64,000 nucleotides of DNA, taken from assembly GCA_963575645.1 (NCBI GenBank), contig OY754469.1, positions 19,672,001 through 19,736,000 on the forward strand, given 5' to 3'. The stretch is from Xanthostigma xanthostigma. Lineage: Eukaryota > Arthropoda > Insecta > Raphidioptera > Raphidiidae. The position numbers were made by a program, and so were the translations under genes. The notes below the pieces were generated by a model. The model had not been told where the DNA came from, searched no databases, and was given only the letters and a program-made list of their open reading frames with translations. Positions 3,353 through 53,700 of this stretch are shown here, piece after piece; position 1 is the first letter of the stretch; each line of letters begins with the position of its first letter.

Positions 3353-4022
3353 ATTATTTTTTTATGACGTGAAACTTCTTAAGGCGCGGTAGAGCAAATT
3401 GGCCTGAATGAGACGAAAAGGGAAACGCTTTCCCTTCTCCGACTTCAACCGGCAGTTGAGAGAAAAGAATCGTTTCATATATACTCTCTCTATGTAAAGG
3501 CGTCATGCGCACTCTAAATGCATGCGCAGTGCGTACTGTGTGTATACGTAGCATTTTTTCTGGCCACGTTAACAAATTCCGCATAATTATTTCCTAATCC
3601 TGAGATAATAAAAACGTCGACAAATGCTAGAATCTAATGAGAATTTTCACGTCTAACGCGCGAGACTCTCACACATAAGAACTTTCTTTTAGAATGATAC
3701 CAGTTTTACTTCTGTAGTGTATAGTGCAAAATACACAGACTTTTTTTGTGGGAGAATAATTTATAATAACCAAAACATAAATATGTATGCACATGCAGTT
3801 AAGTAAAATAAAATAAGATTAGAATTTTTATTTGTTTTAAAATAATTCAAACAGGTACTCAGACGGAATGTTTTGTGAATTTAAACAGTTGGACAATTTA
3901 TGAAACCGAATTATTTGAATAAACATAAACGTAAAACCAAAGAAAATCGTAAAACGCTTATTACAATTTCAACATAGGTACGTTCCAGTTACCATTTAAA
4001 AATTATAATTAAACTTTTAAAC
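3353..4022. other. Spacer with part of a dispersed repeat
   Basis: A motif ATACCAGTTTTACTTC followed by GTAGTGT occurs at about 3698 and again at about 8334. Both lie downstream of a SINE-like head, so this stretch may be a SINE body with insertions. Nothing else is recognisable. Confidence 0.4.
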
Positions 4023-4826
4023 TACCCAGATAGACAAGTATGAGACTCATGGGTATGATGAAAATGAATTATCCAAATTTTACAGAATATTGAACGTATT
4101 TTATTTGACGAAATTAGTATATGAGAGATTTAGATCAAATTGACATCATCAGAAACGTGTAATGTAAGCACCGAAAATGTAGAAAAGTATTGAATGAATA
4201 GTGTATCAACAATGTGACAATTTTTTGGATCATTTAATTAAGACAACATTCATAATTGAATTTGAAGCATTTATGATACATCTGATGATGGAAAAATGCA
4301 GCTAATTGTGAATGCATCCGATGCATAGTTTTTGTAAACATAATGTGACATTCGCATGAACTAAGTTGATTAGATCAACATTGTTGGTTTTGATTGCAGC
4401 AACTTTGATACATCTCATGACGACAATATGTAACTAATATTAGATACATAAAATATATTATATTTTGCATCCAATGTGTGACATTCCGTGTTTTCATTTA
4501 ATGTAAACAATGGGACAATGGTGTCGACTCCATTCATGATTATAAATTCAATACAAAAATATACCACTACTATTTTCTCTTACTCTTATATCTTATTTTG
4601 ACCAATTAAAATGCATCCCCTACCAAGAAATAAAATTTTTCTAAGAATTTCGACCAAGAAAATATATTTGAGCGTCAGTTTGCTGTAAGCTTTAACGAGT
4701 TTTGCTGTCCAGAGCTCTATCGTGGTGCGAGTTATATTATATAATAATTATAATTATGTATGTAAGAACGTTCGTGTGATTACACCAGATGACCAGTGAA
4801 TTTAAGCGAAACATTATAAATTAAAA

Positions 4827-5161
4827 ATGCGGACCAAATTGTCTAAAAAAAGGAAATTTTTGGGGACAAAAATGATGAAAGTGTTCATGAGTAAGTATGG
4901 CTTCTTATTTGTCGAAGAAAGATATGTTTAATAAGATTTAACAAGTTATTATAGTATTCCACTAGATTTCTTATATTTTATCTTTATTACAGGCGCAGCA
5001 AAAAGAACAACTTTACATTAGCTGAATTCGCGACTGATTTCACGGAAGTATTACACACGTTTAAGCAAATGTCCAAGAATGCAAAAAAGAAGAGAACGTT
5101 GATTAATCAAAGACAAGAAGAAACTTCGTATTTGTTGTCAGATGATGAGGAACATAATTAA
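4827..5161 (+). pseudogene. Frameshifted copy of the element's two-exon small ORF
   Basis: Exon A (4827-4890) starts ATGCGG and ends at a consensus donor GTAAGT. Exon B (4993-5161) follows a TTTATTACAG acceptor and ends in TAA. Compared with the intact copy at 33076-33413, exon A lacks one base near its 3' end, so the joined frame is broken. Exon B has substitutions but no insertions or deletions. Confidence 0.6.
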
Positions 5162-5347
5162 ATATAAGTTTTTCAAGCAACGATATGTTAAATACGCAAT
5201 ACACTTTAATCATTATATTTTTTCTGTAATTGTCTCACTTTGTATTTAATTAAAAAAATAAAATCAAACGTCAGCTGAATAAAACTTTTGTATATTTTAT
5301 TATTTATCTGTGTGTATTCATCTATGATTATCATATTGTGATCATTT

Positions 5348-5495
5348 CATGACAACATAAGAAAATTTCAAAATTCCTAAAAATATACTCATTTCCATGA
5401 AAAATTTATTTGAATTATATACATATAATACAAATAAATTTTTCATGGAAATGAGTATATTTTTAGGAATTTTGAAATTTTCTTATGTTGTCATG
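5348..5495. repeat. Perfect palindrome, 65-bp arms
   Basis: The arms 5348-5412 and 5431-5495 are exact reverse complements around an 18-bp loop. Copy 2 of the element keeps only the right arm, so the left arm looks like a later fold-back duplication of the right one. Confidence 0.85.
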
Positions 5496-5505
5496 GTATG
5501 CTCAC

Positions 5506-5790
5506 AATATGAAGCAAATATGAGTCAACGATATTCATCACAGAAATAAGCAAATTTGAAGTAATATTTAATCTTTTTAACACCATCATAGAATGTTCGT
5601 AATATGAAGCAAATATGAGTCAACGATATTCATCATTAAAATAAGCAAATTTGAAGTAATTTTCAATCTTTCTAACACCGTCATAGAATGTACATAATAT
5701 GAAGCAAATATGAGTCAACGATATTCATCATAGGAATAAGTATATTTTGTAGGAATGTTGAATCTTTCAAATATTATCATGATCTACTGT
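5506..5790. repeat. Three 95-bp tandem units inside CCCAGATAG copy 1
   Basis: The anchor AATATGAAGCAAATATGAGT starts at 5506, 5601 and 5696, exactly 95 bp apart. The same three units with the same spacing recur in copy 2. Repeated subterminal motifs are often transposase-binding sites, but that is an inference here. Confidence 0.85.
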
Positions 5791-6097
5791 TAATATGAAG
5801 ACAACTTTTAGTTGAAGATTATTAGTATCCATTTGATTCAATATTTCTACAATATATACTCAACGAATTCTGTCATGATTTTCATTCACTATGAGCTCAC
5901 ACAGGCACTCATAATAGGTCCATGGTGAGTTCATTTCATGTATCAAAAATGATCTAAATTTGCAGTAAATTTGCTGTAAACCTGTCTATCTGGGTATACA
6001 ATTGTCTCGCTGATGAAAAATATAATAGGTACATATTCTTTTCAATAATAAATTGTTTTCAAAGTTGCGATCACATGGTCCTGTATACAGTCGCTTC

Positions 6098-6764
6098 CAG
6101 AGCCGGATTAAGAAGCGAAGGGGCCCGTAGGCGGGACCCTGGGGTTGGGCCTATCGCCTATGTAAAGGGACGAAAATCAATTGAAATAAGAATTGCATTT
6201 GAAAATGAACTTTTGAAATAATATGAAAAATTATTAATTTATTTATACTATGCCAAAAAAGAAATATATAAATACAATGATATTAACGTTTATAACTTTA
6301 ATATATACATTTTATATATTATAACCTACTGAGGGATTATAAATAAGAGGACAATTATATTTGTACATACATAGAATTAGGAACAAATTTTTCTACTTTT
6401 TCTTTCTGCAAATGTTTCAATTACATCATCGAAGCTAAGTTCTTTTAGTAAATCGACACGCTGTACCTTCACATTTTCTCAAATTAGCGTACCATAAATG
6501 AGAAAATTACAAAATTAAAATATTCTATCACCTTCTGGAGATCTTACAAGAAATTATGACGAAGAATTTTGAACAAAAAATTAACAATTTTCTAGCTTTC
6601 ATGTTTGTATGATATGAATTTTTTTTCTAATCCAAAAAAAATTCATTTTAATTTTTTTTTTATTCATTTTCATGTTTTTCTCAATTTTTTACTTTGGTGG
6701 GGCCCTAAGATTTGGGGGGCCTATAGGCGCCGCCTTTAACGCCTACACAGTAAATCCGGCTCTG
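6098..6764. mobile_element. hAT-type MITE with exact 8-bp target duplication
   Basis: The left end is CAGAGCCGGATTAAG and the right end GTAAATCCGGCTCTG, forming inverted termini. GTCGCTTC flanks it exactly at 6090-6097 and 6765-6772. Near the ends are GGGGCCC-rich stretches often seen in animal hAT relics. No transposase is left (667 bp). Confidence 0.93.
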
Positions 6765-9481: not shown

Positions 9482-9825
9482 ACTATACTAATATATAAAA
9501 CTGAAGAGTTTGTTTGTTTGTTTGGTTGAACGTGCTAATCTTAGGAACTACTGGTTCGAATTGAAAAAAAAAATTTGTTGGATAGTCCATTTATCGAGGA
9601 AGTCTATAGACTATATAATATCATACCACGACCAATAGGAGCGGAACATCAATGAAAAATGTAACTCAAAATTTGTCCGTCTGACAAAAACTTTTGAACG
9701 GTAATTCCGATCATCATGAAATTTGGACACAACATTCATCTCGGTAAACTGAACGTGTGTACTCATGTCCCTCCCCCCATTAGTTTTTTTGCACCCGAGT
9801 GAAACTGGCGGGACCACTAGTGATT
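9482..9825. mobile_element. Helitron-like short repeat (lepidopteran style)
   Basis: The left side reads TACTAATATATAAAACTGAA followed by TTTG repeats and the right side ends ACCACTAGTG. From memory these match short non-autonomous Helitron-like units common in moths and butterflies, including the internal CATTTATCGAGGAAG and ACGACCAATAGGAGCGGA stretches. There is no inverted repeat or target duplication, as expected for Helitrons. Confidence 0.6.
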
Positions 9826-10252
9826 CATATAGTTAATTATTAGATATATGGTTAAAAAAAACTCATAAATACTCATGTATTTTCAACATCATCTATTTTC
9901 AACTGAATTTACTCACGTATTTTCAAGTTTTCAGCCCCTAATTCTCACCCAAAGTGTCTCCGCCTACACTACTCAGCCAATTGTAAAATACGTTTGGCAA
10001 CGCTTAACCTAAAATTAATAATGTTTTTAAACGCTTTATATTAGTTTGGGTTGTAAATATGTGTGTATGTATGTCCGTAACGGAATCTTTGAGCATAATT
10101 TTCACCAATTTCCCGAAGTCTGATTAATTTGAAACTTTGCATACGTATCAAGGACCGATGACAATGCAATAATTTGATAACAGTTTCCCATTATCCTTAT
10201 TAGGACCCCCAGGATTAATAAATTCTTTTATAGATCCTCAAACTAAAAAGTG
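9826..10252. repeat. Head module of a hairpin-bearing repeat family
   Basis: At about 10080-10220 the sequence around GAAACTTTGCATACGTAT and CCGATGACAATGCAAT matches modules at about 14030-14120 and 21770-21860. In all three places a long hairpin follows downstream. The rest of this stretch is featureless. Confidence 0.5.
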
Positions 10253-10481
10253 AAAAATAAAATATAGTTTAAAAAAAACTAAAAAACACGCTTTATATCG
10301 GACTAAAAAGTAAAAAATAATTGTTTTAAAATAAGCTTAAAAAGCGTGGGGCGCTTTGTTCCACATTTTCGTACATCGAGCGCCCAACGCTTTTTAAGCT
10401 TATTTTAAAACAATTATTTTTTACTTTTTAGTCCGATATAAAGCGTGTTTTTTAGTTTTTTTTAAACTATATTTTATTTTT
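10253..10481. repeat. Long near-perfect hairpin, 103-bp arms
   Basis: The arms 10253-10355 and 10379-10481 are reverse complements with very few mismatches around a 23-base loop. If transcribed, it would fold into a long double-stranded RNA. No clear target duplication is visible. Confidence 0.85.
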
Positions 10482-10851
10482 ATTGATCTATGACTGCCTC
10501 GTAGTGAGGATGAAAGAAAAGTTGAAAATACACGAGTCGGTAAGTTCCGACAGGTTGAAAATACTTGAGTTCTACTGTAATAATAGAATACCAATATCTA
10601 ATCAGAATAAATGACCGATGACAGTAAATAATAAGATTATTATCACAGGTATTGTAAAAATTCGATGATTAAACTAATTACTAAATCATACAGGAAAAAT
10701 ATTTTCTTAGAACCGATCAATTGCATATAGTAAAAAAATGTTTTTAAAGATAAGCTGATGTTGAAATGTAGGTACTAAGAAGGAAAAACAATTTTTTAAA
10801 ATAGGATCATAATTTATTATCATAGAGTTTAAAAGCTGTTTTACCGATATA
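10482..10851. other. Spacer with a fragment of the hairpin family
   Basis: The region 10725-10800 resembles the start of the hairpins at 14195 and 22013 (AGTAAAAAAA, then TTTTTAAAGATAAGC). Nothing else is recognisable. Confidence 0.4.
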
Positions 10852-11197
10852 GTGTAAACTCTATATATCGACACTCAAGGGACTGTGCACTTTGTGGCGT
10901 TATTGAGAGTTGTCGTTAAACGGAGAGAAGAATTAATAATCCATTTTTTTCGTCAATACACAAAGATTTTTTTTCGCCATGTTCACAATTTGCAAATTTG
11001 TGAGCAACTAAGAATATGATAACTTATCGATAAACATATATGAAAGATAATCCCAACAAACAAAAGAACGAATTTCTTAGCGCATGATGCCGACAACAAA
11101 ACAACAAAAAAACAAACAAGTACTGTTTATTGCTTAATATGACGTATTGTTGTCGTTATTTAGAGTGGGTGTGTCGTTATTTAGAGTGTACTTTGTA
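10852..11197. mobile_element. Degenerate pogo-like element
   Basis: The left end TATAGTGTAAACTCTATA resembles the end of the 592-1086 element. The right side carries CGTTATTTAGAGTGTAC in inverted orientation. The ends have decayed, so the boundaries are approximate. Confidence 0.45.
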
Positions 11198-11275
11198 TGA
11201 GCAACAAGGTAGACCAACTAGAGTTAAGTATAATTTTGACGTTTTTACAATGTTTTGTACAATGTATTTCATTTT

Positions 11276-11525
11276 GTTGTTTTTGACGTGATAACGTCTT
11301 ATAAACTGATGAAACACCAGCTGCACGCACGAAAAAGTGTAACGTTCCGCCTGACCCTGTGCGTGCAAGTGAGAACGCAGTATAAGCGATAGAGAAGCAC
11401 GATCGGCCCAAGTTTGACAGCTACTAAAATTTAGGTTATGTATTATTAAATATGATATTCGAACGGAATACGTTATCACGTAAAACTATCGTCCGTAAAC
11501 CGACTTTACAGACAACCAATTTTTT
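11276..11525. repeat. CGTGATAACG repeat, copy 1
   Basis: It starts near TTGACGTGATAACGTCTTAT and ends near CGTTATCACGTAAAACTATC, so the two sides carry an inverted CGTGATAACG. A longer copy lies in SIRT1 intron 4 (41393-41983) with the same two ends and the same GTAACGTTCCGCCTGACCCT core. Confidence 0.65.
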
Positions 11526-11756
11526 TGCTGTATAATGTCAATAATTAATTTTCTTCTAACATATTTCCAGAAAGTCTCCAAAAATTGTTGTCCCCCATCA
11601 TATTTCGAAAATATGACTAAGAAAAATTTGAAAAAATCAAGAATATTGAAATAATCGGCATTCATTAACATAAGATAGGTAGTTTTTGGTTCATAAAACA
11701 AGTTTGAAAAATATTAATAGAACGGAACGTTTCATGAAAGTTTCACTTCAATTTGA

Positions 11757-12430
11757 AGGCTTTTTAGGGTACATCAAAAGGACAAAAGGAACCCTTATAA
11801 GTTCATTGTACGTCTGTATGTCTGTCAAGACCCTTATTCTCAGGAACGCGTGAAGGTATTAAGTTGAAATTAATATCAAATACTCAGGTTTGCAATCCCT
11901 TGGAGCTGTGAAAAAATCAAACTTGCAAGTCAACGCAACCAAAAGATACGGCCGTTTATGTCGCATATTTTGACACTTGCAAAGGAAATAAGGAATCAAA
12001 ATCTATAGGAAGCTTCCTGTTGACCTAGAATCATGAAATTTGCCAAGAAGCAATGTCTTATAGCACAAGTAAAAGGAAAAATCCGAAAATCGTAAATTTG
12101 TAGTTACATCACAAAAAAAAATATTTTTTTTATACTGACTCACTTATCAAAACCTTTAATGTTTCCCGTTAACCTAGAATAATAATAATAATAACAATAA
12201 TCTTTATTAGTACAGATTAGTGCACTAAAAGGCGAGATTCAGCCACAGGCTGCTTTTCAACCCCTTTATGCTGAATACATAATCAAAATCTTGTTTGGTG
12301 CGAAAAAAAGTTACATAGCACAAGGAAAGCAAAAAATACGAAAACAATAAATTCCTGATTCTGTATAGAATTATTACAGGACAAATTTAATTTTTAGGAA
12401 ATAACGGTACGAAACCCTCAGGGCGCGAGT
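11757..12430. repeat. Dispersed repeat with an internal duplication
   Basis: Two diverged segments, near 12019 and 12169, share GTT(G/A)ACCTAGAAT and later ATAGCACAAG. The second is split by a retrotransposon 3' end (12176-12290). The stretch GAAACCCTCAGGGCGCGAG near 12412 is reminiscent of a repeat common in lepidopteran genomes; I recall this but cannot check it. Confidence 0.5.
12176..12290 (-). mobile_element. 3' end of a non-LTR retrotransposon
   Basis: On the minus strand the sequence runs through TGTGGCTGAATCTCGCC into an (ATT)n tail just after ACTAATAAAG. Insertion into CCTAGAAT of the surrounding repeat is clear from the uninterrupted sister segment near 12025. Only about 115 bp remain. 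Confidence 0.55.
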
Positions 12431-12794
12431 TCACCTCTTATCCGTCTTTTTTTATTTTACTTTGCCTTACGTTTACGTAGACACTTAGAAAAACTGTTTC
12501 CAGAGCTCTGAGATATACGGTATATTATCACTTGATTACACAAAATGTGTCTCAATTCCTAGGATCGTATCAACGCAAACAATATAATTGTGTAAGAATA
12601 TTATGAGAGTTTAAAAATGCAAAATTTATGACGTACTTAGAATTAATCCCTTGTTTAATTAACTCTTTATGCGTTTATTTACAACTTAGAATAATATAAT
12701 TTTGCACATATCCACTTATCTTTTCAAACTAATATTGTATAATTTTACACGGTATATTTAAAGCACAAAACCACACAAAGAAATATTATATGGA

Positions 12795-13365
12795 TAACAA
12801 CGTTTACCACTTCAACACCATAAGTGCGCAATGGTACTAATTTAGATCAAAATTAACTTTTCAAAATTTTACAATATTTTTCGTTTAGAGGTCCCCCGAA
12901 TCCAAAAAAAAATATTTTTGGAAAAAGTGTGCTTATCTCTGAACACGACACAGGTGAAACGAATGAGCAGATTGAAACTAAATTTTATGGGGATGTTTGA
13001 CATGCAAATATGAAGAGCCCTATTGTTTTTGGGGACAATCGGCGCATGCGCAGAAGAGATATGTGTTATAATGTTCTTTTTTCTGTTATACGATATACTT
13101 CTCATAACGGTTTATTATTCAATTTATTTTTGCAAGAAAGTTTTGTAAAAAGGATTTTTTTCTAAGTTTCATAGTTTCGGCAATGTTTTGAAAATAGAAA
13201 ATGTAGGCCGTCCTTTTGTTCTCAATATAATATGTCAAAAAGAAATTAGTTGGGTAGTTTTGGTTAATTTGTACATGTGAAACCATATTGTTTAACCATG
13301 CAACCGAACAGTAAATATAATAATAACATTTATTACTAGTTGTTATCCGCGCCACCTCACGCCTT
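12795..13365 (+). repeat. Dispersed repeat family R1, copy 1
   Basis: It shares GGTACTAATTTAGATCAAAA, ATGCAAATATGAAGAGCCCT and TTGTTATCCGCGCC with 18585-19055. A partial inverted copy sits in SIRT1 intron 4 (41063-41392). No transposase or clear termini are seen; the right end is near CTAGTTGTTATCC. Confidence 0.65.
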
Positions 13366-14004
13366 AACAGTGCACGCGTTTCTGTGGCTCAATTTGGTTT
13401 GCGTGTGTTGCTTTAACGTCCAACAGATGGCGTTCCGTTGAGGTAAAATATTTATGCAATCCGCACTAGTGCTGTAATGAAAAACGAAAGTACGCGATCT
13501 AACAAATTCAACAGTAATTTTTATAAACTATCAGCTACCATTAGAAATATACGTAACAATAGTAGGCGCGAATAGTAGTAATTTTCATAAACAACAAAAT
13601 ATAGAAGTCGTTTTTGTTATCACTCGTGTGACTGTTAAAATTCGCTGTCTCTCGTTTTCATGTTTTCACAAATTGTCATTATTCGCGCGTAATATACGTA
13701 ATTACGACACTATAGATATAACAATTTACTATTATAGGTATATCTTTGTAATCTCGACGTAAATGCAGCAAGTACTTGTGAACTATCTTTACGTACTTTA
13801 GAGCATTTAAGTAGGTACATAGTATTAAATATTTTTGTACCTACGTCATTTTGTATTTCAAATAATATTTTTGGCTCCTAATCAGTACCCAATTACGTCA
13901 CACGTGTGATTCATATTAGTGATCCAATTGACCACTTTTCACTACAGTGGAGAGACAACAATGCTGTTCACTTTTTACAAGCCTTTATTTAGTTTCATTT
14001 ATCC
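13366..14004. other. Spacer without recognisable features
   Basis: No gene or repeat structure was recognised. Confidence 0.35.
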
Positions 14005-14484
14005 CGGTGTCTGTCTAAAATCAAATTTTGCAAGTTAAATTTCACCCACTTCCCGGTTTTCGATTGAGTTGAAATTTTGCATACGTATGTAGTTCCGATA
14101 ACAATACAATATTATAATAATTAACTGACCGGTCCGGCTCTCGTCCGAATGCAAATCGCACTTTTAATAAAGCGCAATAAAAACTTAAAAATAAATTAAT
14201 AGTAAAAAAACATTTTTAAAAACAAGTTTTCATTTAAACGCACCGAAAAGAAGTGAATTAACTTTAAATTAAATCAAACCCAATCATTCATTACATTACT
14301 CAATTTATATGATATAAAAGCTTGTCGCGAGATCTTCCTGATCTGTAAACAAACAAGAATACAATATGTAACTTGATCTTAACATACGTAATTTTAAAAA
14401 AAGTATGTATTTCATAAAATAAATTTATACAGGAAAATCTCGCGACAAGCTTTTATATCATATAAATTGAGTAATGTAATGAAT

Positions 14485-15636
14485 AATAATAATAATAATA
14501 ATAATATTAATATTTCACCTAGCTATACTAAGTATAGATGTGAATAGTCAAAAATCAAATTAAAATCTAAGAATTTAAATATTCATTTATACTATAAAAA
14601 CAATTTGTAGTGAGGTACTTTTTGAGCTCAGTTTCAAATTGTCTACTGTTAGAAATTTGGCTTATATGGCTTGGTAAATTATTAAAAAGAATAGATCCCG
14701 CATAGATTGGAGATTTTTCATAAGATGTTGTATGGTGCTTAGCTATATATATTTGTGATGACTGCCTGGAATTATAGGGATTAATATCAGAAACTGTCTT
14801 ATAGCGGGATATATTCCTTTTAACATTTACCAATATCTTATATATATATATAGATATGAGTGTTAATATTTTGTAGCTTTTAAATTTTTCTCTACAAGTA
14901 CCTCTGAACGGTATATTAAAGATTAAACGTACAATTCGTTTTTGTAGTATAAATGCTCTATTTATGTCAACTGATTGACCCCAAATTATTATGTTATACT
15001 GTAAATAAGGATACACTAGTGCATAATACATATTGACCAATTGATCAGTATTTAAATATGACTTAACACTTTTTATAGCGAAATATGCCGATCTGAGTTT
15101 GTTACAAACATGTTCTACGTGAAGTCTCCAAGACAGTTTCTCGTCAACATATAATCCCAGAAATTTGCATTCAGATGTAACTAAAACTTCATAGTTATTT
15201 ATTTTAAATTTTAAATTTGGTTGTACTTTTCTTTTGTGGAAAAATAAACAGTTCGTTTTTTGCACATTGAATACTAATTTATTTTTAAAGCACCAGCAAG
15301 AGAACTCCTTAAGAGCAGTATTAACTTGACTTTCTAATTGCTCCACATTATCGGCTGATATCGCTATAGAAACGTCATCGGCAAACAATGCTATTTGGCC
15401 AACATTGATAAATTGGGGTAAATCATTAATAAAAATTAAAAAAAGTAATGGGCCCATCACAGAACCTTGAGGTACACCAATAGAACTATCAAAGACATTT
15501 GAGTAGGTGCCACTAACGTTAACGATCATTTTGCGATTATCTAAAAAAGACCTTATCCAGTCATTTATTTTACCTCGTAAACCTAGACTACTTAATTTAG
15601 TTAAAAGAAACTTATGATCCATACAATCAAAAGCAC
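14485..15636 (-). mobile_element. 5'-truncated non-LTR retrotransposon (LINE) fragment
   Basis: The insertion has an (ATT)n tail at its 3' end (14485-14510, minus-strand orientation) and encodes the C-terminal part of a reverse transcriptase. Its 5' edge falls exactly at the point where the host hairpin arm is interrupted. The style of the RT suggests a Jockey/CR1-like clade, which I cannot settle. Confidence 0.85.
14567..15634 (-). pseudogene. Reverse transcriptase C-terminal fragment of a LINE
   Basis: The frame opens with CAFDCMDHKFLL, which is RT motif A with its catalytic Asp. It continues with motif B (GVPQGSVMGPLLFL), the catalytic FADD of motif C (ALFADDVSIAI), and the downstream LGLYVDEKLSW region. 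It stays open for about 355 codons to the stop at 14567. The endonuclease and the N-terminal RT half are missing, so it cannot be an active element. The long intact frame suggests a fairly recent insertion. Confidence 0.85.
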
Positions 15637-15721: not shown

Positions 15722-17215
15722 ACTATGATTTTTTTGTAAATATGTATATGCGTAAATTCAGGGGCGGATTTCCCTATAGGCCAAGTAGGCCCGGGCCTAG
15801 GGTGGCAAAATATTTAGAGGGCAGCAAAACTTAGTGAGACTTTTTTTCTAGTACTTTTTAATATCCAATGACACCCAGCTACAACAAACGAAAAAAGACT
15901 TTTTTGTTGTGAAAATGAAAGGATCTTTTTTTTGCTCTCCTATTTGTGCCGACACACGATAAAATTTGTCAAGAAGTTAGGTTGTTAAAAAAAGCTCATT
16001 CGTTTTTTTTTTCTCTTCAATTGTGCACACGACAAATTTTTTTAAGCTAGGCTGAAAAAAAGGTCATTTGCAGGGAGTAGGGAGGGTGGCAATCTTCCGT
16101 AGGCCTAAAGCAGCCAAGGTAAATGATGAGTTGATCGAAAATTCTCCACCAAAATAGGTATACTTTGCTCATTATTGCTGGTATCCTGTATAAGCGATAT
16201 TATAAATTAGAGCAGTGTTTCCCAAGCGATTCAGATGGGTGCTATAGTTTCCTCAGAAGCAATGGGGGCGGGGGGCGTTGAACAAAAATCAGGGAGTAAT
16301 GAAATCATGGAAAAAAGAAGAGAATTTTTATTAATCGTTGAGACATGGATTCATTTGTTATAAAAAACATATAAATAGTTAAATAAATAATGCTGGTAAC
16401 ACAAAAATAGAGCCGAAAATATAAAATAACAAGAACTCATCAGGCTCATCCTTCTCAGTTATCATTATGACTTCATTTTTAATGTCTAAATAATTTTATA
16501 ATTTAAGCGTCAAATCGTCTTAATTATAAAAATATTTTTCTTTACTGTTGTGTAGCTAAAATCATAGATACATACAAGAAAGAAAAATTGTCACTGTATC
16601 TTTCTGTTTGTTGACAAGAAGGTAGATTTCCAGGAAAAGTCGGATAAATTTCTATCTAAAAAAGTGGCGGTAGACCAAATAAGTTGGAGGATTTCTGAAT
16701 TAGACTTTTATTGTTTTGGCATTACCGACTGACGGCCTTACAAAAAGCAGATTGTTAAATTGAGATAATCTAAATCCCTCAAATTTATATCTAAATTAAA
16801 GGTTCCACGTGTTTTATTTTTATTTATTTAGTACCGACAATTATTATTATATATTTCACGTGCTAATAAATTGCGGTACCTAATTTACAACAGGTTTAAT
16901 GGATTAACGATTTATTTCTGTATGTGTGATAATAAATGAATAATTATATATCACAATCAAAATTTTAAATTCTTCAACAGTCCACCGCAAATCATCTTTT
17001 CTGAAAGGCATCCTCGAAAACGCTTCGTCACCGGCTTATTTCTCAATATTTTTCTACAAAAAAATTACAAAATGTTGTTCGAATGATGCTTTGTTACATG
17101 TGAAACATTAAAATATATCCACTTAAACGATATCTCTAGAAAAAATTCGAAAACAAGTGTTTTTTTCACCCGTTAAACCCTAACACCCCCCCGATAAACG
17201 TTATGGCAAAAAGGT
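15722..17215. other. Spacer with hAT-like left ends
   Basis: CAGGGGCGGATTTCCC at about 15761 and CAGTGTTTCCCAAGCG at about 16205 look like hAT left termini. No matching right ends or 8-bp duplications were found. The rest shows nothing recognisable. Confidence 0.35.
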
Positions 17216-18139: not shown

Positions 18140-18467
18140 TAATACGCGCCACGGATCTAAAAGGTTCGGATGTTAGTCACAAACATCGTCGCAAAGGCCC
18201 ATTTTACAGTTGTTGAGATGAGACTCACCAACTCCCAACTGCCTGCACGGAACGTGCGCTCGTCGGTGATTGGCCGTGATCGCTCGTTGCATTTGTTACT
18301 TGTCGCTTTCCTGTTTTAAAGTACAGTCGAGTACGTTATTGTCAAGTTGTTATTGTTATTTTAGTTTTGTTGAATTGCGAGTTTGTAGTTTATCAACAGA
18401 CTGTATACAAGCGCAAGCCCGCATTCGCATCTAACGTCCGAGCCTTTTAGATTCGTGGCGCGTATTA
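18140..18467. mobile_element. TA-flanked MITE with ~37-bp inverted ends
   Basis: The left end TAATACGCGCCACGGATCTA pairs with the right end TAGATTCGTGGCGCGTATTA, and the match extends through AAAAGG and CGGA(T/C)GTTAG. TA flanks both sides (18138-18139 and 18468-18469). The interior is more GC-rich than its surroundings and non-coding. Confidence 0.8.
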
Positions 18468-18584
18468 TACCACGTAAATCATAGTCATTCGCTTAAAAAT
18501 GTCGTGAACAAATTCGATGGCTGGGAAGAAGATTCCGAACATTTGACACTTTTTTCAAATAATAATGTACCTATATCTACTTTT

Positions 18585-19055
18585 TCAAAACTGCCGAAAC
18601 AATGTTTCTATTCCAACCCACAAGTGGGGAATGGTACTAGTTTAGATCAAAAATCACTTTTCAAAATTTTACTATATCTTTTCGTTTTGACATCCCCCGA
18701 AACATATTTTTGGAAAAACTCTGTGCGTCTGTTAGTTTGTTTGACGATACAGGTCAAACGGATGAGCGGATTGAAACCAAATTTTGGGAGGATGTTTGAT
18801 ATGCAAATATGAAGAGCCCTATTGTTTTTGGGGAAAATCGGCGCATGCCCAGAAGAGATATATGCTATAACGGTGTTTTTTATAATACAATTGTATATTT
18901 TTCATAACGGCTTATTATTCTATTTGTTTTTTCAATAAAGTTTCGTTGAAATTTTTTTCTAAGCTTTATACCTAGTTTCGGAAATATTTTGAAACATAGC
19001 AACGAATAGCAAATATCATACTGAATACTAGCCGTTATCCGCGCCCCCTCATGCG
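18585..19055 (+). repeat. Dispersed repeat family R1, copy 2
   Basis: It is collinear with 12795-13365, including ATGCAAATATGAAGAGCCCT and CCGTTATCCGCGCC at the right end. The 102-codon ORF overlapping it is not conserved in copy 1, so I do not call it coding. Confidence 0.65.
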
Positions 19056-22389: not shown

Positions 22390-22948
22390 TAGCCAGAGTG
22401 CCCGTCGGCAAAAATTTTATTGATACATACTCTTCCCAAACTTTGTCTATGGCTTCATTAGGCCTAGTCTGACACCTATTTTCTCTATGACTTTTCTTGA
22501 TTTTGGGGCGTTTTCCCTCTAAACTTTCCGAAAGATGTCATTTTGACGACATGTAAAAATTTATAGATACTATTTGTTTTTTTAATTGGATAGCTTAAAA
22601 ACTGCAACCAAAACGCTAATGTTCTCTAACAAATAATATGAGCCATTTAAAATGTCTGACACCTCGAATATGTCGACCATTTTCGAGGTGTTCATGTTAT
22701 TTGTCAAAGAACATCATTTTAGCGTTTTGTTTGAAGTTTTTAAGCTATCCAATTAAAAAAACAAATAGTATCTATAAATTTTTATATGTCGTCAAAACGA
22801 CATCTTTCGGAAAGTTTAGAGGGAAAACGCCCCAAAATCAAGAAAAGTCATAGAGAAAATAGGTGTCAGACTAGGCCTAATGAAGCCATATACAAAGTTT
22901 GGGGAGAGTATGTATCAATAAAATTTTTGCAGACGGGCACTCTGACTA
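22390..22948. mobile_element. Fold-back transposon with ~270-bp arms
   Basis: The whole element is two long arms in inverted orientation, starting TAGCCAGAGTGCCCGTC and ending in its near-complement. They run through CGTTTTCCCTCTAAACTTTC and AATTGGATAGCTTAAAAACT to a short centre. A single-arm relative sits at 1-168. The short ORF 22638-22853 lies inside the arm and is not a gene. Confidence 0.85.
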
Positions 22949-32128: not shown

Positions 32129-33075
32129 TACAGTAGAGACGCGATAATCCGGACTAATTAAAACACAGCTGATCCGGATTATCAAAATGTCCGGATTACT
32201 GGATGTAATTTTAATTATCAAGAAAACAAACTAAAAAGCGTGCTCAAAGGATTTATTCATACGTAAAAAATAAAACTTTTAATTTCCCAGATAGACAAGT
32301 ATGAGACTCATGGGTATGATGAAAATGAATTATCCAAATTTTACAGAATATTGAACGTATTTTATTTGACGAAATTAGTATATGAGAGATTTAGATCAAA
32401 TTGACATCATCAGAAAAGTGTAATGTAAGCACCGAAAATGTAGAAAAGTATTGAATGAATAGTGTATCAACAATGTGACAATTTTTTGGGTCATTTAATT
32501 GAGACAACATTCATAATTGAATTTAAAGCATTTATGATACATCTGATGATGGAAAAATGCAGGTAATTGTGAATGCATTAGATGCATAGTTTTTGTAAAC
32601 ATAATGAGACATTCGCATGAACTAAGTTGATTAGATCAACATTGTTGGTTTTGTTTGCAGCAACTTTGATACATCTCATGACGACAATATGTAACTAATA
32701 TTAGATACATAAAATATATTATATTTTGCATCCAATGTGTGACATTCCGTGTATTCATTTAATGTAAACAATGGTGTCGACTCCATTCATGATTATAAAT
32801 TCAATACAAAAATATACCACTACTATTTTCTCTTACTCTTATCTTATTTTGACCAATTAAAATGCATCCCCTACCAAGAAATAAAATTTTTCTAAGAATT
32901 TCGACCAAGAAAATATATTTGAGTGTCAGTTTGCTGTAAGCTTTAACGAGTTTTGCTGTCCAGAGCTCTATCGTGGTGCAAGTTATTATATAATAATTAT
33001 AATTATGTATGTAAGAACGTTCGTGTGATTACACCAGATGACCAGTGAATTTAAGCGAGACATTATAAATTAAAA

Positions 33076-33413
33076 ATGCAGACCAAATTGTCTAAAAAAA
33101 GGAAATTTTTGGGGACAAAAATGATGAAAGTTATTCATGAGTAAGTATGGCTTCTTATTTGTCGAAGAAAGATATATGTTTAATAAGATTTAACAAGTTA
33201 TTATGGTATTCCACTAGATTTCTTATATTTTATCTTTATTACAGGCGCAGCAAAAAGAACAAATTTACATTAGCTGAATTCGCGACTGATTTCACGGAAG
33301 TATTACACACGTTTAAGCAAATGTCCAAGAATGCAAAAAAGAAGAAAACTTTGATTAATCAAAGACAAAAAGAAACTTCGTATTTGTTGTCAGATGATGA
33401 GGAACATAATTAA
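33076..33413 (+). CDS. Predicted two-exon 77-aa protein of the CCCAGATAG element
   Basis: Exon A is 33076-33140, ending at donor GTAAGT, and exon B is 33245-33413 after a TTTATTACAG acceptor. The join completes a GAG codon and gives 77 residues plus a stop. The N-terminus is very basic (KLSKKRKFLG), suggesting nuclear localisation. The middle reads FTLAEFATDFTEVLHTFKQM, probably helical, followed by a lysine run and an acidic tail SDDEE. I do not recognise the family. It is too short for a transposase; it may be a DNA-binding accessory protein or the remnant of a larger ORF. Exon B has no indels relative to copy 1. Confidence 0.45.
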
Positions 33414-33694
33414 ATATAAGTTTTTCAAGCAACGATATGTTAAATACGCAATACACTTTATAATCATTATATTTTTACTGTAATTGTCTCACTTTGTATT
33501 TAATTAAAAAAATAAAATCAAACGTCAGCTGAATAAAACTTTTGTATATTTTATTATTTATCTGTGTGTATTCATCTATGATTATCATATTGTGATCATT
33601 TCATGAAGCAAACATAATTCAAATAAATTTTTCATGGAAATGAGTATATTTTTAGGAATTTTGAAATTTTCTTATGTTGTCATGGTATGCTCAC

Positions 33695-33980
33695 AATATG
33701 AAGCAAATATGAGTCAACGATATTCATCAAAGAAATAAGCAAATTTGAAGTAATATTTAATCTTTTTAACACCATCATAGAATGTTCGTAATATGAAGCA
33801 AATATGAGTCAACGATATTCATCATTAAAATAAGCAAATTTGAAGTAATTGTCAATCTTTCTAACACCGTCATAGAATGTACATAATATGAAGCAAATAT
33901 GAGTCAACGATATTCATCATAGGAATAAGTATATTTTGTAGGAATGTTGAATCTTTCAAATATTATCATGATCTACTGTT
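33695..33980. repeat. Three 95-bp tandem units inside CCCAGATAG copy 2
   Basis: The anchor AATATGAAGCAAATATGAGT starts at 33695, 33790 and 33885, the same period as in copy 1. Confidence 0.85.
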
Positions 33981-34541
33981 AATATGAAGACAATTTTTAG
34001 TTGAAGATTATTAGTATCCATTTGATTCAATATTTCTACAATATATACTCAACGAATTCTGTCATGATTTTTATTCACTATGAGCTCACTCAGGCACTCA
34101 TAATAGGTCCATGGTGAGTTCATTTCATGTATCAAAAATTATCTAAATTTGCAGTAAATTTGCTGTAAACCTGTCTATCTGGGTTGTCAAGAATTTCGTT
34201 TTTTACTTGCAGTGATAAAGTAACGTGTGATCGTTTACGCGGCGCCATGGTGCGTTCTCTATGTAATTCTATCTGAGTTTGACAACGACTACATACATAC
34301 TAAACCCACCTAACTTCTTTCACTTCTCTGACAACAAATATGTATGTAACTGTTTGTAACACACCGCCAGCCAATAGTGTTGACGCAAATAGTGCCGGTA
34401 CAGCTACTCAATAACTATCATGATCCGGATTACTGAAACTGGAAAAATCCGGACTACAATGTACATAATACTATCAAACAACTGTCCGAATTACCAAGGA
34501 ATCCGGATTATGAAGGTTCGGATTAACGCGTCTCTACTGTA

Positions 34542-36221: not shown

Positions 36222-39200
36222 TTACCTGAAACATCTTAAATATTTCCTCTTCAGTTTCACTTCAGCCCCAGGAAATATGTACACGTTAGGTTTCTTATAG
36301 TAATAGGAATTTATCGGCAGACAATCTGACAGACTGATCTTATACCGGGCGTAATCTTCATCTATTCCAGAATCGTAAGTTGATTCGGTTGATGTGTGTC
36401 TTTCCGGAGGTCTGTGGTCTGCTTCTTCTGTTTCGAGTTCTGTGTCTGGCTGTTCTGTGTTTTGTACGGAATCAGTGTTATCATCTGCAAACAAATCAAT
36501 CAATTAATCAGATTGTTCTATCACTATCTTTACAAATCTGACAACCCATCTTTTCAAAAGATATACATACACTTAAAAATGAAGATGTATCTATACAGTA
36601 GAGACGCGATAATCCGGACTAATTAAAACACAGCTGATCCGGATTATCAAAATGTCCGGATTACTGGATGTAATTTTAATTATCAAGAAAACAAACTAAA
36701 ATGCTCATATTTTGCGGCTAACTGTTTATTTGAGGCTCCCTTTTTTAATTTGTCAAGAATTTAGTTTTTTACTTGCAGTGATAAAGTAACGTGTGATCGT
36801 TTACGCGGCGCCATAGTGCGTTCTCTATGTATTTCTATCTGAGTTTGACAACGACTACATACATACTAAAACCACCTAACTTCTCTCACTTCTCCGGCAA
36901 CAAATATGTATGTAATTGTTTGTAACACACCGCCGGCCAATAGTGTTGACGCAAATAGAGCCAGTACAGCTACTCAATAACTAAGAATCCTGATCCGGAT
37001 TACTGAAGCTGGAAAAATCCGGACTACAATGTACATAATACTATCAAACGACTGTCCGAATTACCAAAGAATCCGGATTATGAAGGTTCGGATTAACGCG
37101 TCTCTACTGTACTAATATTATAGATAGGTAAAGTTTGTAAGTTTGGATGTGGGAGGTAATCTCCAAAAGTACTCATCCAATTTTAAAAATGTTTTCACTA
37201 ATATTTAGAATGGACTTTCAGGATGGACACAGGCTATATATTATCGCTTTAAAATAAAAGCGCTTTTCGCGAAGAAAAATTTTGCAACGGAAGTCGACGA
37301 AAAAACTGTGGCAATCTACAAATTCGAGCGAAGCCAAAACTGACCGCTACCACTAAATATTATAAAACAAAGTCTGTCTGAACGCGATTAACTCAAAAAC
37401 TACCGAACGGATTTTCATACGGTTTTCAGCAATGGACGAAGTGATTCAAGAGAAAGGTTTATGTGTATAATTCATTAATGTTTTGTGTAACTTGGTTTAA
37501 ATATATGACGATGGTTGTTGAAGATGTCGGAAAAAATCAAGCTGACTGGGAGTTTTCATCGAAAACGCTGCCTAATCCCTTTGAGATATAACAAAACAAT
37601 GTACGGTGGAATTGTTTATCTTTTATAGGTCCACAGAAAAGTCTAGGATGGCATGTGTCTATTTTTTAAGGATAGCTTACTGTACCCATTTTAATGTTAA
37701 GCGCTTTTCGTGGATATCAATTTTGCAACGTAAGTGGACAAAAAAAAAAACGGTGGCAATCTACAAATTCGAGCAAAGCCGGACCGGGCTGCTAGTGTAA
37801 AATAAAATAAAGTAAGTTTAAGAAATGCTCATGCGATACTATGAGAAAAAAAGAGATAGAAAAATTTAATTTCACTTAAAAAATTAAAGCATTTACACTT
37901 CAATTTAAAATTAATTTCACATACCTATTTGACGTTCCTGTTCTCCGAAATTCTCAAACAATAAACTGCAGTCATCGTCTTGTGATGATAAATCGCTTGA
38001 CTGATTTGAAGATTCGTCATCGCAATTTAAGTCATCTGACGAAACTGTACTCGAACTGCTGTCGCTATCATAAGACGATTCCTTTGACTGTCCCATACTC
38101 TCGTCTGAACTGTTATCGTCCTCATCGTCGTCGTCATAAAACGACGATTCCTTAGTCGGAGAAGTACAAGATTCGTTATTTGTCGACTCAAAATCGTTAT
38201 GTAGTGTTTGAATTTTAGACGAAGATTCACAATGGTCCGCATCCATTGAAAGGGACAAATTGTTTTGTTCTGTTGGCAACAAATCCATTTGTGCCCCTTC
38301 TCTTTCTGTTGATATTTCGTTAACTGGCACCAAAGTACACGACTTTTTATTGCTACCGTCAGTTTTCGTTTCGTCGTCTTCAGATAACATTACGGACGCT
38401 GGTCGTTTCAGCGATTTTTTCTCTTCAATTTGAGCCATGTTTTTCTCTGTAGGTGGATCATAAACACTTTCTGATTCCATTTCTACATCTACGTCATTTA
38501 AAACATTGGAATTATTTTCAAATTTGGAATTCTGTTCAACAATATTTGAATTGTTTACATCATGTTTTGATGTAACTTCCTTTGTTTCACAATTCTCAAA
38601 CGTAGACGTGCTCGTCATCGGTATTTGATTTAAATGTTCCATGTTCCAGTTGTTTGAGCACGAATCCTCTGCAAACTGCGGTGTGTACGATGGATCAGGT
38701 ATTGATTTTAATTTTTCGATTTTTGAATAGTCTGAACGTGTATTCATTTCATTTTCCCGTCCATTTTCATAATTGCAGCAGTTTTCGCTGAAGAACGAAA
38801 CGTTTTCACGCTCTGAACTTTCATGCAATTCGGATTCAATATCTGAATTGGTAGGTTGTTGATCATTTTGTGGATTAAATATGACATTCTGAAGTTTTTC
38901 AGGTACTATCAATTTATCTGCTTTCTTTAAGGATTCTTTCCAACAAACATCTCCCCACGATTCTCCAAGCCTAGAGTTTAAGAAACGAAATGTTGTCAAT
39001 AAATCGAATTGAAAAACAACAAGTAGAAAGAAGAAATTCTACTTCACATAAGACTGTTGAGAGGCCATTCTTCTACCCGAATAATTTTCTGAACAACTTA
39101 GCGTTTTGTGGAAATTGTTCAAACCGTTCAATGCTAGCCACTATAAACTGCAATATGACTAATTAATAAAATAGGGTTGACCAACATATCAACATGTGAA

Positions 39201-42200
39201 AATTTGAAATAGTGCAAGTCATTTATCATCCATAAACAAATAGTGTAAATCAACTTTTCCTTTCTTATTTGGATTCTAACTGGAGACAGAGCCCATAAAT
39301 ATTCAATTCGGCCGTTCTAGGCAAACCATTTCTATTGATAGAATATGAGGTATCAATGTTTTATTTGAAATGTGTATATCAGAGAGAGAAATATGACATT
39401 GGGGTGATACTAATAATTCAAAATATGATTATATTGAAGGCAAAAAAATTACAAGTACTGTTCATATCGTAAAATCATTAATGCAAGTTGTAGTGATAAG
39501 GTTAACTTTGTCGCTTTCTGAATATAAATTCTAAATTTCCAAAGCGTGTAGCAGTGTTAAAAGTTTTAAGTTACAATGTGTTCCGACAATTATTATATAA
39601 TAGTTGTCAAATTCTATTCAAAAAAATATGAAAATCTTTTAACAAAATCTAGATTCAATAAGACACAAGTAAATGCAATATATGTATACCAGTTGTGCGA
39701 TTTTTATAACATTATTAAAATAAAGTCCACTTACATGTGACAAATTTGGTTGATGATTACATCAGAGTCCCCGAGTAACTCCACGTCAAACGACGTGCAA
39801 TGTGGAAGCCTTTCTCTATTTATGAGTACTTGTGGAACATGTGAAGGTAGAGATCCTGGTATTTCTGCTACCGGGCGAACCTAAAAACAGTCGTTTATTA
39901 ATTACAATTCATTTTGTCTACTTACAAAAATATTTTTTTTTAACATACCTTCAATGAAGATCCAATTACAAGTAAAAGATCACAAGCTGTCCGATCCACT
40001 CTGATCCATTTATGGAATCTTTTTGGTAGGCCTTCACCAAAAAATACAATGTTTGGTTTCATTACGCCATTTGCAACTAATTCTGTAATAAGAGATTTCT
40101 TTGTTAATATTAAATATTTGTTTAAAAAAAGTTAAAAACAATTAATAACAAAATATTTTCTATCTCGAGTGTCTAAATTAGGCATAACGTCAATAAAATT
40201 TCAAATAAACAATGAACCACAAATAGTATTTATAAATAAAATTATCGACCAATTTTTCAGACAAATAAATTAACAAAAATATATTAAATTCAATACATAA
40301 TTTATTGAAGAGTTCTAATCAGACGTTAATCAAAGATTTGAATAGTATTTATATTCGTTGCGTTTTCTTCGCATTAAGTTTTCAATATTTCAATCAGTCA
40401 TGAACAATAATCATACCTCTAAAATCAATATCATCCATAGCGCTGACACTCTTGACTCCCGGATTGCAGACTTCGCACACTGGTATTCTTTGTGCAAATA
40501 TATCATCGCGTATATAATCTGCTTTAACAGTCCTCTCACATCTTGTACAAGCCGCATCGGCAAAAGAGCCATGACACTCTACGACGCGGGATATTCCCGC
40601 CGATCTTTCCAATGTATCGATGTTCTGAGTGTAGTTCCGTAACAGACGTCCATGATTCTCCAAAGCGCGAATAAACCGGTGACACGGTGATGGCGTAAAA
40701 CGGCCCGGATAGATCTCACGAGCGAATTTGAAAAAAGGACGCGGATCAAGCCTGTAAAATGATAAATATTCTAGTTCAAGCGATACCACAAAAGAAGAAT
40801 ATCTATCAAAAAGCATTTGGAAAAAACTAAATATAAAAATCGTTTCAGTAAAAAAAAATTCCAGCCAATTGGGCATAGGGGACCATTCCAACTTCAAAAT
40901 GTCATTTGATATAGTATAACAAAAGAAAAAAACAATTTCCTATATCGCGTGAAGTGACGTGGGTAAAGGCTAGTGTTCAATATAATATTTGCTATTCGTT
41001 GCCATGGTTAACTATATAATATGTTCCAAATCATGTAAAAATTAGTCAAAGCATGCTTAGCTAGTTTATTTCTGACAGATCTGCAAAACGAAAGAACAGC
41101 TGATTTTTTTATTTTCAAAATATTTCCGAAACAAAACTTTAGAAAAAAATTTTTTTAGCAAAACTCGTGAAAAAATAAATAGAATAACAAGCCATTATGA
41201 AAAGTATATATTATTATATAAAAAAAAAAAAAAAAAAAAACACCGTTATAGCATATATATCTTCTGCGCATGCGCCGATTTTCTCCAAAAACAATAGGGC
41301 TCTTCATATTTGCATAACAAACATCCTCCCAAAATTTTGTTTCAAAACGTTCATCTGGTTAACCTGTATCGAGCTCACAGACAAAATATTAGTTTTTTGA
41401 CGTGATAACGTCTTATAAATTGATGAATCACCAATCTTATAAATTGATAAAACACCGGCTGCATGTACGAAAAAGTGTAACGTTCCTAACGGTCGTAACG
41501 TTCCGCCTGACCCTGTGCGCGCTTTTCTCGAAAACGGCCCTAACGATTTGGATGAAATTTACTGAAAAGGGATTTTGGGGGGCAAAAAATCGTTTTAGCT
41601 AGGTCTCATCTCTCGAAAAAATCGTTTTCTTACAAATTTTATCATTATAAAAATCAATTTTTTGACGTATGAAAATACTTAAATATTGTAAGTAGGTTTT
41701 GGAATTTTATATAAACAGTGAAACAATTGTTTTATAAATATTATGACAGCTAATCTTTGAGACTTAAAATAAATACGAAAGAAAGAAAGTTAAAAAAAAA
41801 CAATTATATTATATGGTGAGTAATTTAAATAAATAAAATTAACCTAAATTTGAAGCGAAAGATGCAATATCATAGATTCGAATTATTATAATCATTATAT
41901 AAATTTAGGTTATGTATTACGGAATACGTTATCACGTAAAACTATCGTCCGTAAACCGACTTTACAGACAACCAATTTTTTTTTCTAAATTTTGTTATGG
42001 AAGATACCCAGGCTCTACTTTTATATTAAACCCTGAATGTTAACTATAATTAAAAAATAATAATAATAAAAATAAAGACAATACCAACCTAAAGTATGAA
42101 CTATCGAACATTGCATGCGGGTCAGGTAAGTCTGGAAAATCAACAGCTAATCGAGCGTATATTCCATCTCTAGATCGGAAGTCAGGAATGCCACAAGACA

Positions 42201-50707: not shown

Positions 50708-53700
50708 TTACATGAAATCAAATGAAACGTCATCGAACTGTTTGTTTTGATTAGCATTCATTTGTTGATTAATTTGTGGACCTCGTGGACCTGTATTTCC
50801 CATTGACTGTAGGCCCATCAATTGTTGACGATACTGCGGCTGCTGCTGTAAACATTAAATAATATAGTAAAAATATTACACAATATGTAAATAATCATAA
50901 ATTAGAAAATATTTAATTTCAAATCTAGATTAGTGCACTATTGGCTTTAACAGTGAATAATTCGTGTATCCTACTAGGTACAAAAAAAGTTTAAATAGTT
51001 TTTTGTTCCACTCGAGATTTACTATTGAAAACTGTGGAGGAACTTTTTTTTGTATTTCAAACTCAACTGGAAGTGTACATGCATTTTTTTACAGAATTTT
51101 GTGTATATGTTATTCGTCCATTGCCCGAAATTTTTACCCAAAACGCGTTGCGGCGTTGCGTATAAGGAAATATACCCGCAAAGCGTTTTCTTTCAGTTCT
51201 TGCGGGAAATGGGTAAAAATAAACGCCCACAATGCGTTATGGGTAAATTCCCATACCCACTACATGAATTAAAAGTTTTTGAAGCGTCGCATCGGTTTGT
51301 AGGCATTCCAATTACCCACAATGCGTTGTGGGCGTTTAATTTTACCCATGCCCCGCAAAAACTAATAGAAAACGCTGTGTGAGTATATTTCCGTACCAGC
51401 AACGCGTTGTGGGCAAAAGTTTCGAGCAGTGGCCGATTTCTGCTAAACGCGTAAGGTGCACATAGGGAAATAATTTAACATTGGGAAAAAACAGTTAGCC
51501 TTGACTGCATTAATTGTTATTTCTATTGCGTTCCTATGGTAATCTTGAGGATTTCTATTTTATTTTGATTTATTTTTCAATTTATGAAGAGTACTTTTTT
51601 ACGAAAATAGAACAAAAAAGTAACTAAAACAATATACAATAGATTTCGTGTGAAATTAACTTAGATATAACTTCTTGTATGAACAAAAGTCAGCTCTGCC
51701 GTACAAAGCAATAATAGAGCACATACCGCTAGTTTAGCCAGTATGTGCAAAATGTGATGAGAAGTAATTATCGAGAATTTGGCCCAACATATGACCCCAG
51801 TGCGGCGCGGCGGGTTGCGGGGTCAACAATTGCAGTGTTTTTAATTTGTAATCATTTGATGTGGGGTTCCATAAAATAAAAGGAATTTGTTGAGAATTCC
51901 GTTACCTTGAAAGTTAAGCAGCAGCTGCTATAAACTTAAAAGAAAATAAAGTACCTGTTGTAATAAGTGCCTAAGACCAGGATTGTTGGACATGACATTT
52001 GGCCGCATCATTCGTTGCTGTCCTGGAGCAACAACGCCACCAACTGGACCTGCCTGTGATACCTGCGGCGCCATTGGACCTCTTTGCTGTTGCTGTTGTT
52101 GCATTTGTTGAATTTGTGCTCTTAATTGTTTTTGTTGTTCTTGCTGCAACAATTAAATATTTACAATTAGACTGCTGATAACAATTTTCCACCGGGTTCT
52201 TTTGTCAAGACACTGCAAATGTTTTGAGATCTCAAGCTAACGTGAACATTTTTCACTATAACATGCTGAATAACATAACTTCGTAATAAACTTATTATTA
52301 CCAACATTCCCATTCCGTTCCCTGACGTCAAAAATCTCATCAAGAATAAAATCCGCGAAAGTTGGCAATCCGAATGGACGACAATCTCCAACAACAAGCT
52401 TCGAGTCATCAAACCTACAGTATTGAAATGGATCAACCTGCCCATAAATCGCAAAGAAAATACTGTGCTGACCCGACTGAGAATTGGCCACACCTTATTA
52501 ACGCATAGCCACCTGTTCAGAAGAACCGACCCGGACATCTGCCCCACATGCAATACAACACTAACCGTTCATCATATCCTCACCGAATGTCAAGCATATG
52601 CCTACAATAGAATACAACTCCCCGCTCAACTTCAAGACATCCTCAGTGACAACAGAGAAAATATTGAAAAATTATTCCAGTTCTTAAAAAATACCGACCT
52701 CTTTAACAAAATCTAAGCAACAGTTAAACCTCGTTACTTTCAGCAACCTACTTCATACTTAGAGCTAATGGCCTTGCTGCCGAAGCCTCATAATATATAA
52801 AAAAAAAACTTATTATTGTCATGCTAACGTGAAACTAAAAACCCCTACAAACTACGCAATCTGCTCGTTGGTCAACGCACATAAACCGGGTGCTACTTCT
52901 CACATGATCCAACTTGGCAGTATGCTATGATAACTCGCTCTGTTGGGTAAGAAGATAAGTTATCATGGCTCGTTCAATTTCGAGACGCCAAAAATTAGAA
53001 AGTTAATTATTTTTGTTACAAAACGTTACGCCGATGCAAAGAAGAAAATGTTGTGTTAAAAAGTGGTTACTATAAAGAAAAAAAGTTTAGCCATACAAAT
53101 ATTAAGTACTCATTAGTTGTAGTTTTTAAGGCAAATGAAAGACAAATTACGACAAATAGATCAACTGCTCTACAGATGATCCAACTTGCAGTGATGAGTT
53201 GGAAGATTGTGTGATTACCCAAGTCAAACAGTCGACATAAAAATAATTATAATGAAACTGCAGAATTAGCCAACAAACGATTCAATTTACAGGGTCCCTG
53301 CAATTTAGGTCGTGTTAAGCACAACTCAAAAATTTAAAACAAGAAACCACCAACTCACCTCCATTTGTTTATATTGCATTTCTTGTTGCTGCGCCATATT
53401 GAGTGCTTCCTGGATATGCTGCGTCTTCATATGATTCATTATCTCCAACTGACTCTTGTATTGTGCCTCTTGTTGCTGAGCTGCTTCTAACGTCTGTTGC
53501 AAATGTAATATCTTTTCTAAATTCTGCTGTCTGGCCACCTCGATATGATCAATCGGAGGTCTCTGTTGTTGCGGTGCTCCCAACATGCCAGGTCCTTGTC
53601 CAGTGTTTTGCTGACCCACAACCTGATTTCTGATAGGTCCGGCTATGCCCGGTTGTGGTTGATTGGTTACATTACCGATACCCTGTGTAAAATCAAACAA

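Follow-up and report, generated by a model that had tools for sequence, protein, structure and literature searches.

The window, i.e., the whole 64-kb stretch of Xanthostigma xanthostigma DNA that was analyzed, contains two copies of an element, both on the plus strand and thus in direct orientation with a spacing of 28 kb: copy 1 at 4025-5994 (1970 bp) and copy 2 at 32286-34183 (1898 bp). Their alignment spans 1975 columns, of which 1860 match, 33 are mismatched and 82 contain gaps, that is, 98.3% identity when only ungapped columns are counted, in agreement with a preliminary description that had recorded two near-identical copies of about 1.9 kb at these positions. By count from the alignment, 65 of the 82 gap columns fall at one place, near 5358-5424, where a palindrome of copy 1 (5331-5512, unstranded, with 90-bp arms that are 96% complementary) is absent from copy 2. 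Both copies carry a plus-strand tandem array of 2.8 copies of a 95-bp unit, located near the right end of copy 1 at 5506-5768, with degenerate partial units extending over 5460-5800, and at 33695-33957 in copy 2. The preliminary description mentions neither this array nor the host element around copy 2, with its empty site, nor the predicted spliced 77-aa reading frame, which in copy 2 is open. A degenerate period of about 132 bp is recognizable at the left end of copy 2, and its best self-match was equaled in 0 of 300 dinucleotide shuffles. Repeats near the ends are a feature of plant CACTA transposons; in the present element, subterminal words of 7-9 bp were not enriched, either in the left 466 bp or in the left and right unique parts, with at least 138 of 200 shuffles scoring as high in all six tests. 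With the array removed, the rest of the element showed a mild enrichment of A/T-rich words, including AAATATA with nine occurrences (9 of 200 shuffles as high) and AAAATATA with seven (3 of 200), which was judged to reflect A/T-rich stretches.

No third copy was found by blastn within the 64-kb window, the sole other match outside the two copies at E <= 0.01 being a 30-bp stretch at 16307-16336 (86.7% identity, E = 0.006) that was taken as chance. An Rfam search over 3900-6100, covering copy 1 only, yielded nothing at gathering scores. Elsewhere in the window, there are 25 ORFs of at least 100 aa; among the 10 that were scanned, three matched Pfam families (reverse transcriptase, SIR2 and Med25). 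The latter two are minus-strand ORFs at 40394-40939 and 59400-59786, matching the SIR2 family and the VWA domain of Mediator subunit 25, respectively, and represent host genes around the transposons. Other repeats include a palindrome of about 560 bp at 22390-22948 (90.8% self-complementary) that looks like a foldback element and has an arm that recurs at 1-172, at the start of the window; a self-complementary repeat at 51114-51436 (74%) where several units resembling CCCANAANGCGTTG lie on both strands; and a dispersed repeat with copies at 12796-13197, 18598-18999 and 41105-41384 (78-92% identical). An open frame at 18435-18812, overlapping one of the dispersed-repeat copies, matched no Pfam family at E <= 0.01.

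Coding content and searches for relatives

A 77-aa ORF was predicted on the plus strand of copy 2, with exon 1 at 33076-33140 (donor GA/GTAAGT) and exon 2 at 33245-33413 (acceptor TTACAG); the predicted two-exon frame is open and its splice sites are consensus-like. The counterpart of exon 1 in copy 1 (4827-4890, plus strand) is one base shorter, and its frame closes after 30 residues. Given that a count by eye between the two copies gives one silent and four amino-acid-changing substitutions, in addition to the frameshift in copy 1, there is no sign of selection keeping this ORF. It matched no family above the Pfam curated cut-offs. The matches it gave all fell below them, namely Syntaxin_2 (E = 0.00071, 20 bits compared to the 26.5 needed), which appeared again in six-frame Pfam scans of the copies (E = 0.011 and 0.09), and CodY (E = 0.0082, 16.1 bits compared to 29.5); a search against the PDB returned one sequence at E = 0.14. 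In our judgement, these are coiled-coil or compositional matches.

The same six-frame Pfam scans detected no transposase domain, including Transposase_21 (PF02992), in either copy. The preliminary description had noted no recognizable transposase, and this holds; the missing Transposase_21 is as expected of a non-autonomous element.

Searches of viral contigs with the 20-bp left end, the 21-bp right end or the 25-bp repeat core produced no match, and 24 stretches in these contigs that fit the peptide pattern of the 77-aa protein included none that was confirmed. Plasmids and phages, queried with copy 1, gave no match either; viral, phage and plasmid collections would not be expected to hold a relative. 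In prokaryote genomes, the 19-bp right-end pattern had two exact matches, one in an Aeromonas record and one in a Clostridiales record, which were taken as chance because a 19-bp pattern should turn up about twice in 257 billion bases. In a literature search with a 9-mer, none of the matches listed concerned the family of the element, judging by title, and combining the 9-mer with "transposon" and "inverted" yielded nothing related.

Inverted ends, target duplications and the empty site

The terminal inverted repeats of copy 1, CCCAGATAGACAAGT at 4025-4039 (left, plus strand) and CCCAGATAGACAGGT at 5980-5994 (right, minus strand), agree at 14 of 15 positions and then diverge, with 15 of 20, 18 of 30 and 20 of 40 positions in common over longer stretches. 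All four ends of the two copies begin with CCCAGATAGACA, in a CCC..GGG pattern, and the end sequences CCCAGATAG and CTATCTGGG are confined to these ends, with exactly two occurrences apiece in the 64 kb. CCCAG or its complement is present at 40 places in the window (19 + 21), the four ends of the element included, or about 3e-4 per position across the two strands, so that a CCCAG end is not trivially obtained by chance. The only CCCAG-ended pairs with matching 2-bp flanks in the window are the two known copies; looser CCC..GGG pairs with matching 2-bp flanks do exist, for example, at 9776-15452 and 51137-51243.

TA borders copy 1 at either end (target site duplications, TSDs, at 4023-4024 and 5995-5996) and TT borders copy 2 (32284-32285 and 34184-34185; all four unstranded). 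Two randomly chosen places in the window share the same 2 bp with a frequency of 0.081 and, accordingly, chance agreement at both copies would have a probability of about 0.0065. These observations corroborate the short inverted ends and the differing 2-bp duplications, TA at one copy and TT at the other, that had been described from the sequence previously.

Copy 2 interrupts a smaller transposon with CAGTAGAGACGCG ends, TA flanks and TCCGGATTATC-like subterminal motifs, two copies of which are found in the window (32131-34539 and 36596-37109). On the plus strand, the left part of this host transposon occupies 32131-32285 and the right part, beyond copy 2, 34186-34539, and the uninterrupted paralogue at 36596-37109, also on the plus strand, provides an empty site for copy 2. 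The paralogue reads TTTTAATTTGTCAAG, and the copy 2 site reads TTTTAATTT, the element and then TTGTCAAG; deleting the element together with one TT restores the uninterrupted sequence, which implies that the duplication is exactly 2 bp long and has the sequence TT, with the main caveat that about 40 nt (32237-32275), located directly 5' of the last 9 bases before the junction, are unmatched between the copies of the host transposon. These copies are otherwise about 95% identical (96.7% over 120 bp further out on the left and 94.5% over 366 bp on the right). On the plus strand of the window, the 9-mer TTTTAATTT is present 10 times, counting these two sites, and on the minus strand 14 times, so that it is unlikely to lie flush by chance alone; the junction may also have undergone a filler or gap-repair event. 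The earlier contention that a TA target is not obligatory is thus backed by an empty site as well as by the TT flanks.

Each copy has the 10-mer AAACTTTTAA just beyond its left end (4011-4020 and 32273-32282), in a register shifted by one base between the two. These are its only plus-strand occurrences in the window, with two more on the minus strand. With two sites observed, the 10-mer may reflect a target preference; at copy 2, its AAA part belongs to the unmatched block of about 40 nt described above.

Classification of the element and alternative readings

We consider it likely that the element belongs to the animal TRC branch of the CACTA/EnSpm superfamily as a non-autonomous DNA transposon, probably one shortened by internal deletion. 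This assignment draws on the 2-bp footprint and on a likeness of the ends over 3-5 bp that was noticed after the fact. The element probably constitutes a new non-autonomous family of this branch. The preliminary description left the element unclassified, a label that has to be revised given that CCC or CCCAG ends combined with 2-bp duplications are the pattern published for animal TRC elements (in the relevant passages of PMC1636069 and PMC4298943). Termini beginning with CCC, specifically CCCAG in the Aedes and Hydra members, are matched at all four ends of the present element, and a 2-bp TSD is found at both insertions (n = 2), with TT backed by the empty site.

The closest parallels are with SmTRC1 of Schistosoma, which, in the account given in PMC1636069, has CCC as its terminus, with 2-bp repeats at 7 of 14 copies and three empty sites, located in repeats. 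The full SmTRC1 element contains a tandem-repeat region, has 54-bp ends and encodes Transposase_21, and a truncated 2274-bp copy, described there as lacking the tandem repeat, codes for only 98 of 560 residues (PMC1636069). The same source gives the end of an Aedes relative as CCCAGTCAAC and that of a Tribolium relative as CCCTAGTAGCACC..., each with a 2-bp direct repeat. The present element shares with SmTRC1 and other animal TRC elements the CCC terminus (CCCAG in Aedes) and 2-bp footprints with empty sites in repeats, the likeness of the footprints being one of length. With SmTRC1, it also shares tandem repeats (in the full form of SmTRC1), and the truncated SmTRC1 copy of about 2.3 kb likewise has a cut-down ORF. 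However, the ends of the present element are about 15 bp rather than 54 bp and it has no detectable transposase, and, unlike the short SmTRC1 copy, it keeps the array, which counts against TRC membership. The Hydra element Spongebob/EnSpm-4N1_HM, with the end CCCAGCCAACATTGAC and a 2-bp TSD, is placed by its authors among TRC elements, and short forms of Spongebob occur in insects (as stated in part of PMC4298943); the CCCAG start and the 2-bp TSD are common to Spongebob and the present element, with no clear agreement beyond five bases when the ends alone are compared. Further animal CACTA families have been reported (in passages of PMC4298943 and PMC2884549), and PMC13155389, in the portion concerned, merely cites the SmTRC1 work. 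Within the CACTA-Mirage-Chapaev-Transib clade, termini are CA..TG in most cases, according to the pertinent section of PMC12730594; the present element ends in CCC..GGG and, in departing from CA..TG, resembles the published TRC ends. Other points that count against the TRC assignment are the lack of a transposase remnant, the end match of 3-5 bp, the absence of CA..TG termini, the negative subterminal-motif test and the presence of two copies only.

The alternative that survives best, although we regard it as unlikely, is a non-autonomous mariner-like (Tc1/mariner) element, with copy 2 representing a rare integration at TT instead of TA. TA, the target common to Tc1/mariner elements (as given in part of PMC7325037, a review of pogo), flanks copy 1, and the size of the element is within the 1.3-2.4 kb quoted for mariner in PMC1636069. 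Compared with the first 18 bp of the Mos1 3' ITR (Table 2 of PMC3419177), bases 2-19 of the left end are identical at 14 of 18 positions, a score reached only by the two left ends among 127,944 window positions on both strands, but the register of this match is one base off the TSD, and Mos1 was chosen after the fact and is the sole mariner compared. Over the full 28-bp ITR, the left end agrees at 15 positions, a score that 361 window positions equal or exceed, and agreement within the inner 10 bp is at chance; the right end, with 10 of 18 and 13 of 28, is not above chance. With every window position as the null, comparison with the Mos1 3' ITR gives a hint of mariner from 18 bp of a single end and no more than chance agreement over 28 bp, and the mariner reading was not adopted. 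Moreover, no remnant of a mariner transposase was detected in either copy (Pfam, six frames), and the TT target of copy 2 is supported by the empty site. A TA target is accordingly found at copy 1 but not at copy 2, and matching ITRs are not found at both ends (Mos1 alone compared). The TT footprint, together with the chance-level matches over 28 bp and at the right end, makes mariner the weaker rival. The variable 2-bp duplication had been held to argue against the strict TA target of Tc1/mariner; this argument gains from the empty site without becoming absolute, and the mariner reading is not impossible, because integration of Sleeping Beauty at sites other than TA has been reported (PMC5801840), at lower frequency (PMC7987939).

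It appears improbable that the element represents a superfamily yet to be described, characterized by CCC ends and a variable 2-bp footprint. The 77-aa ORF without a family above the curated cut-off, the lack of a transposase in the element and a TRC filing that rests on 3-5 bp plus footprint length would be compatible with such a superfamily, but ends and footprints of this kind have already been seen in TRC/CACTA elements, so that there is no need to postulate a new kind. Also a long shot is mobilization by an undescribed lineage of transposase whose variable 2-bp cut falls on AT-rich sites and which recognizes the CCCAGATAGACA ends.

The footprint of piggyBac elements has the sequence TTAA, and TTAA flanks are seen at neither copy. 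A piggyBac-like element, or a member of the PHIS group (ISL2EU, PHISTA or relatives), is very improbable, even though PHIS members leave no footprint or one of 1-4 bp and piggyBac/IS1380 termini are CC..GG (from part of PMC10045372), and PHISTA makes TA footprints (from part of PMC12730594). The piggyBac footprint is 4 bp long (PMC10045372, same part) compared to 2 bp here, and ISL2EU makes AT footprints and has ends that usually start with GG (as described in a portion of PMC4482050), whereas the present element has TA and TT footprints and CCC ends. A duplicated host gene segment or an assembly artefact, with no transposon involved, deserves hardly any credence: the element does carry an ORF with an intron-like structure, but the similarity ends at matching inverted ends and 2-bp repeats at both loci, and copy 2 interrupts a repeat for which an uninterrupted paralogue exists.

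Proposed mechanism and significance

Under the TRC/CACTA assignment, an autonomous relative located at another site of the genome would supply a Transposase_21-type enzyme that acts in trans as the helper, recognizes the CCCAG ends and excises the element by a cut-and-paste route. Insertion would then occur at AT-rich sites with a 2-bp stagger, and repair of the stagger would create duplications that are 2 bp long and vary in sequence. The predicted 77-aa ORF may be a remnant of an element gene. We infer this route, along with the superfamily, the helper and the origin of the ORF, from the copies, their ends and their footprints.

Animal TRC-type CACTA elements are treated in few open papers. 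The two 98%-alike copies, the empty site and the possible target preference would provide a handle for finding an autonomous relative, and a non-TA 2-bp footprint need not imply an unknown transposon.
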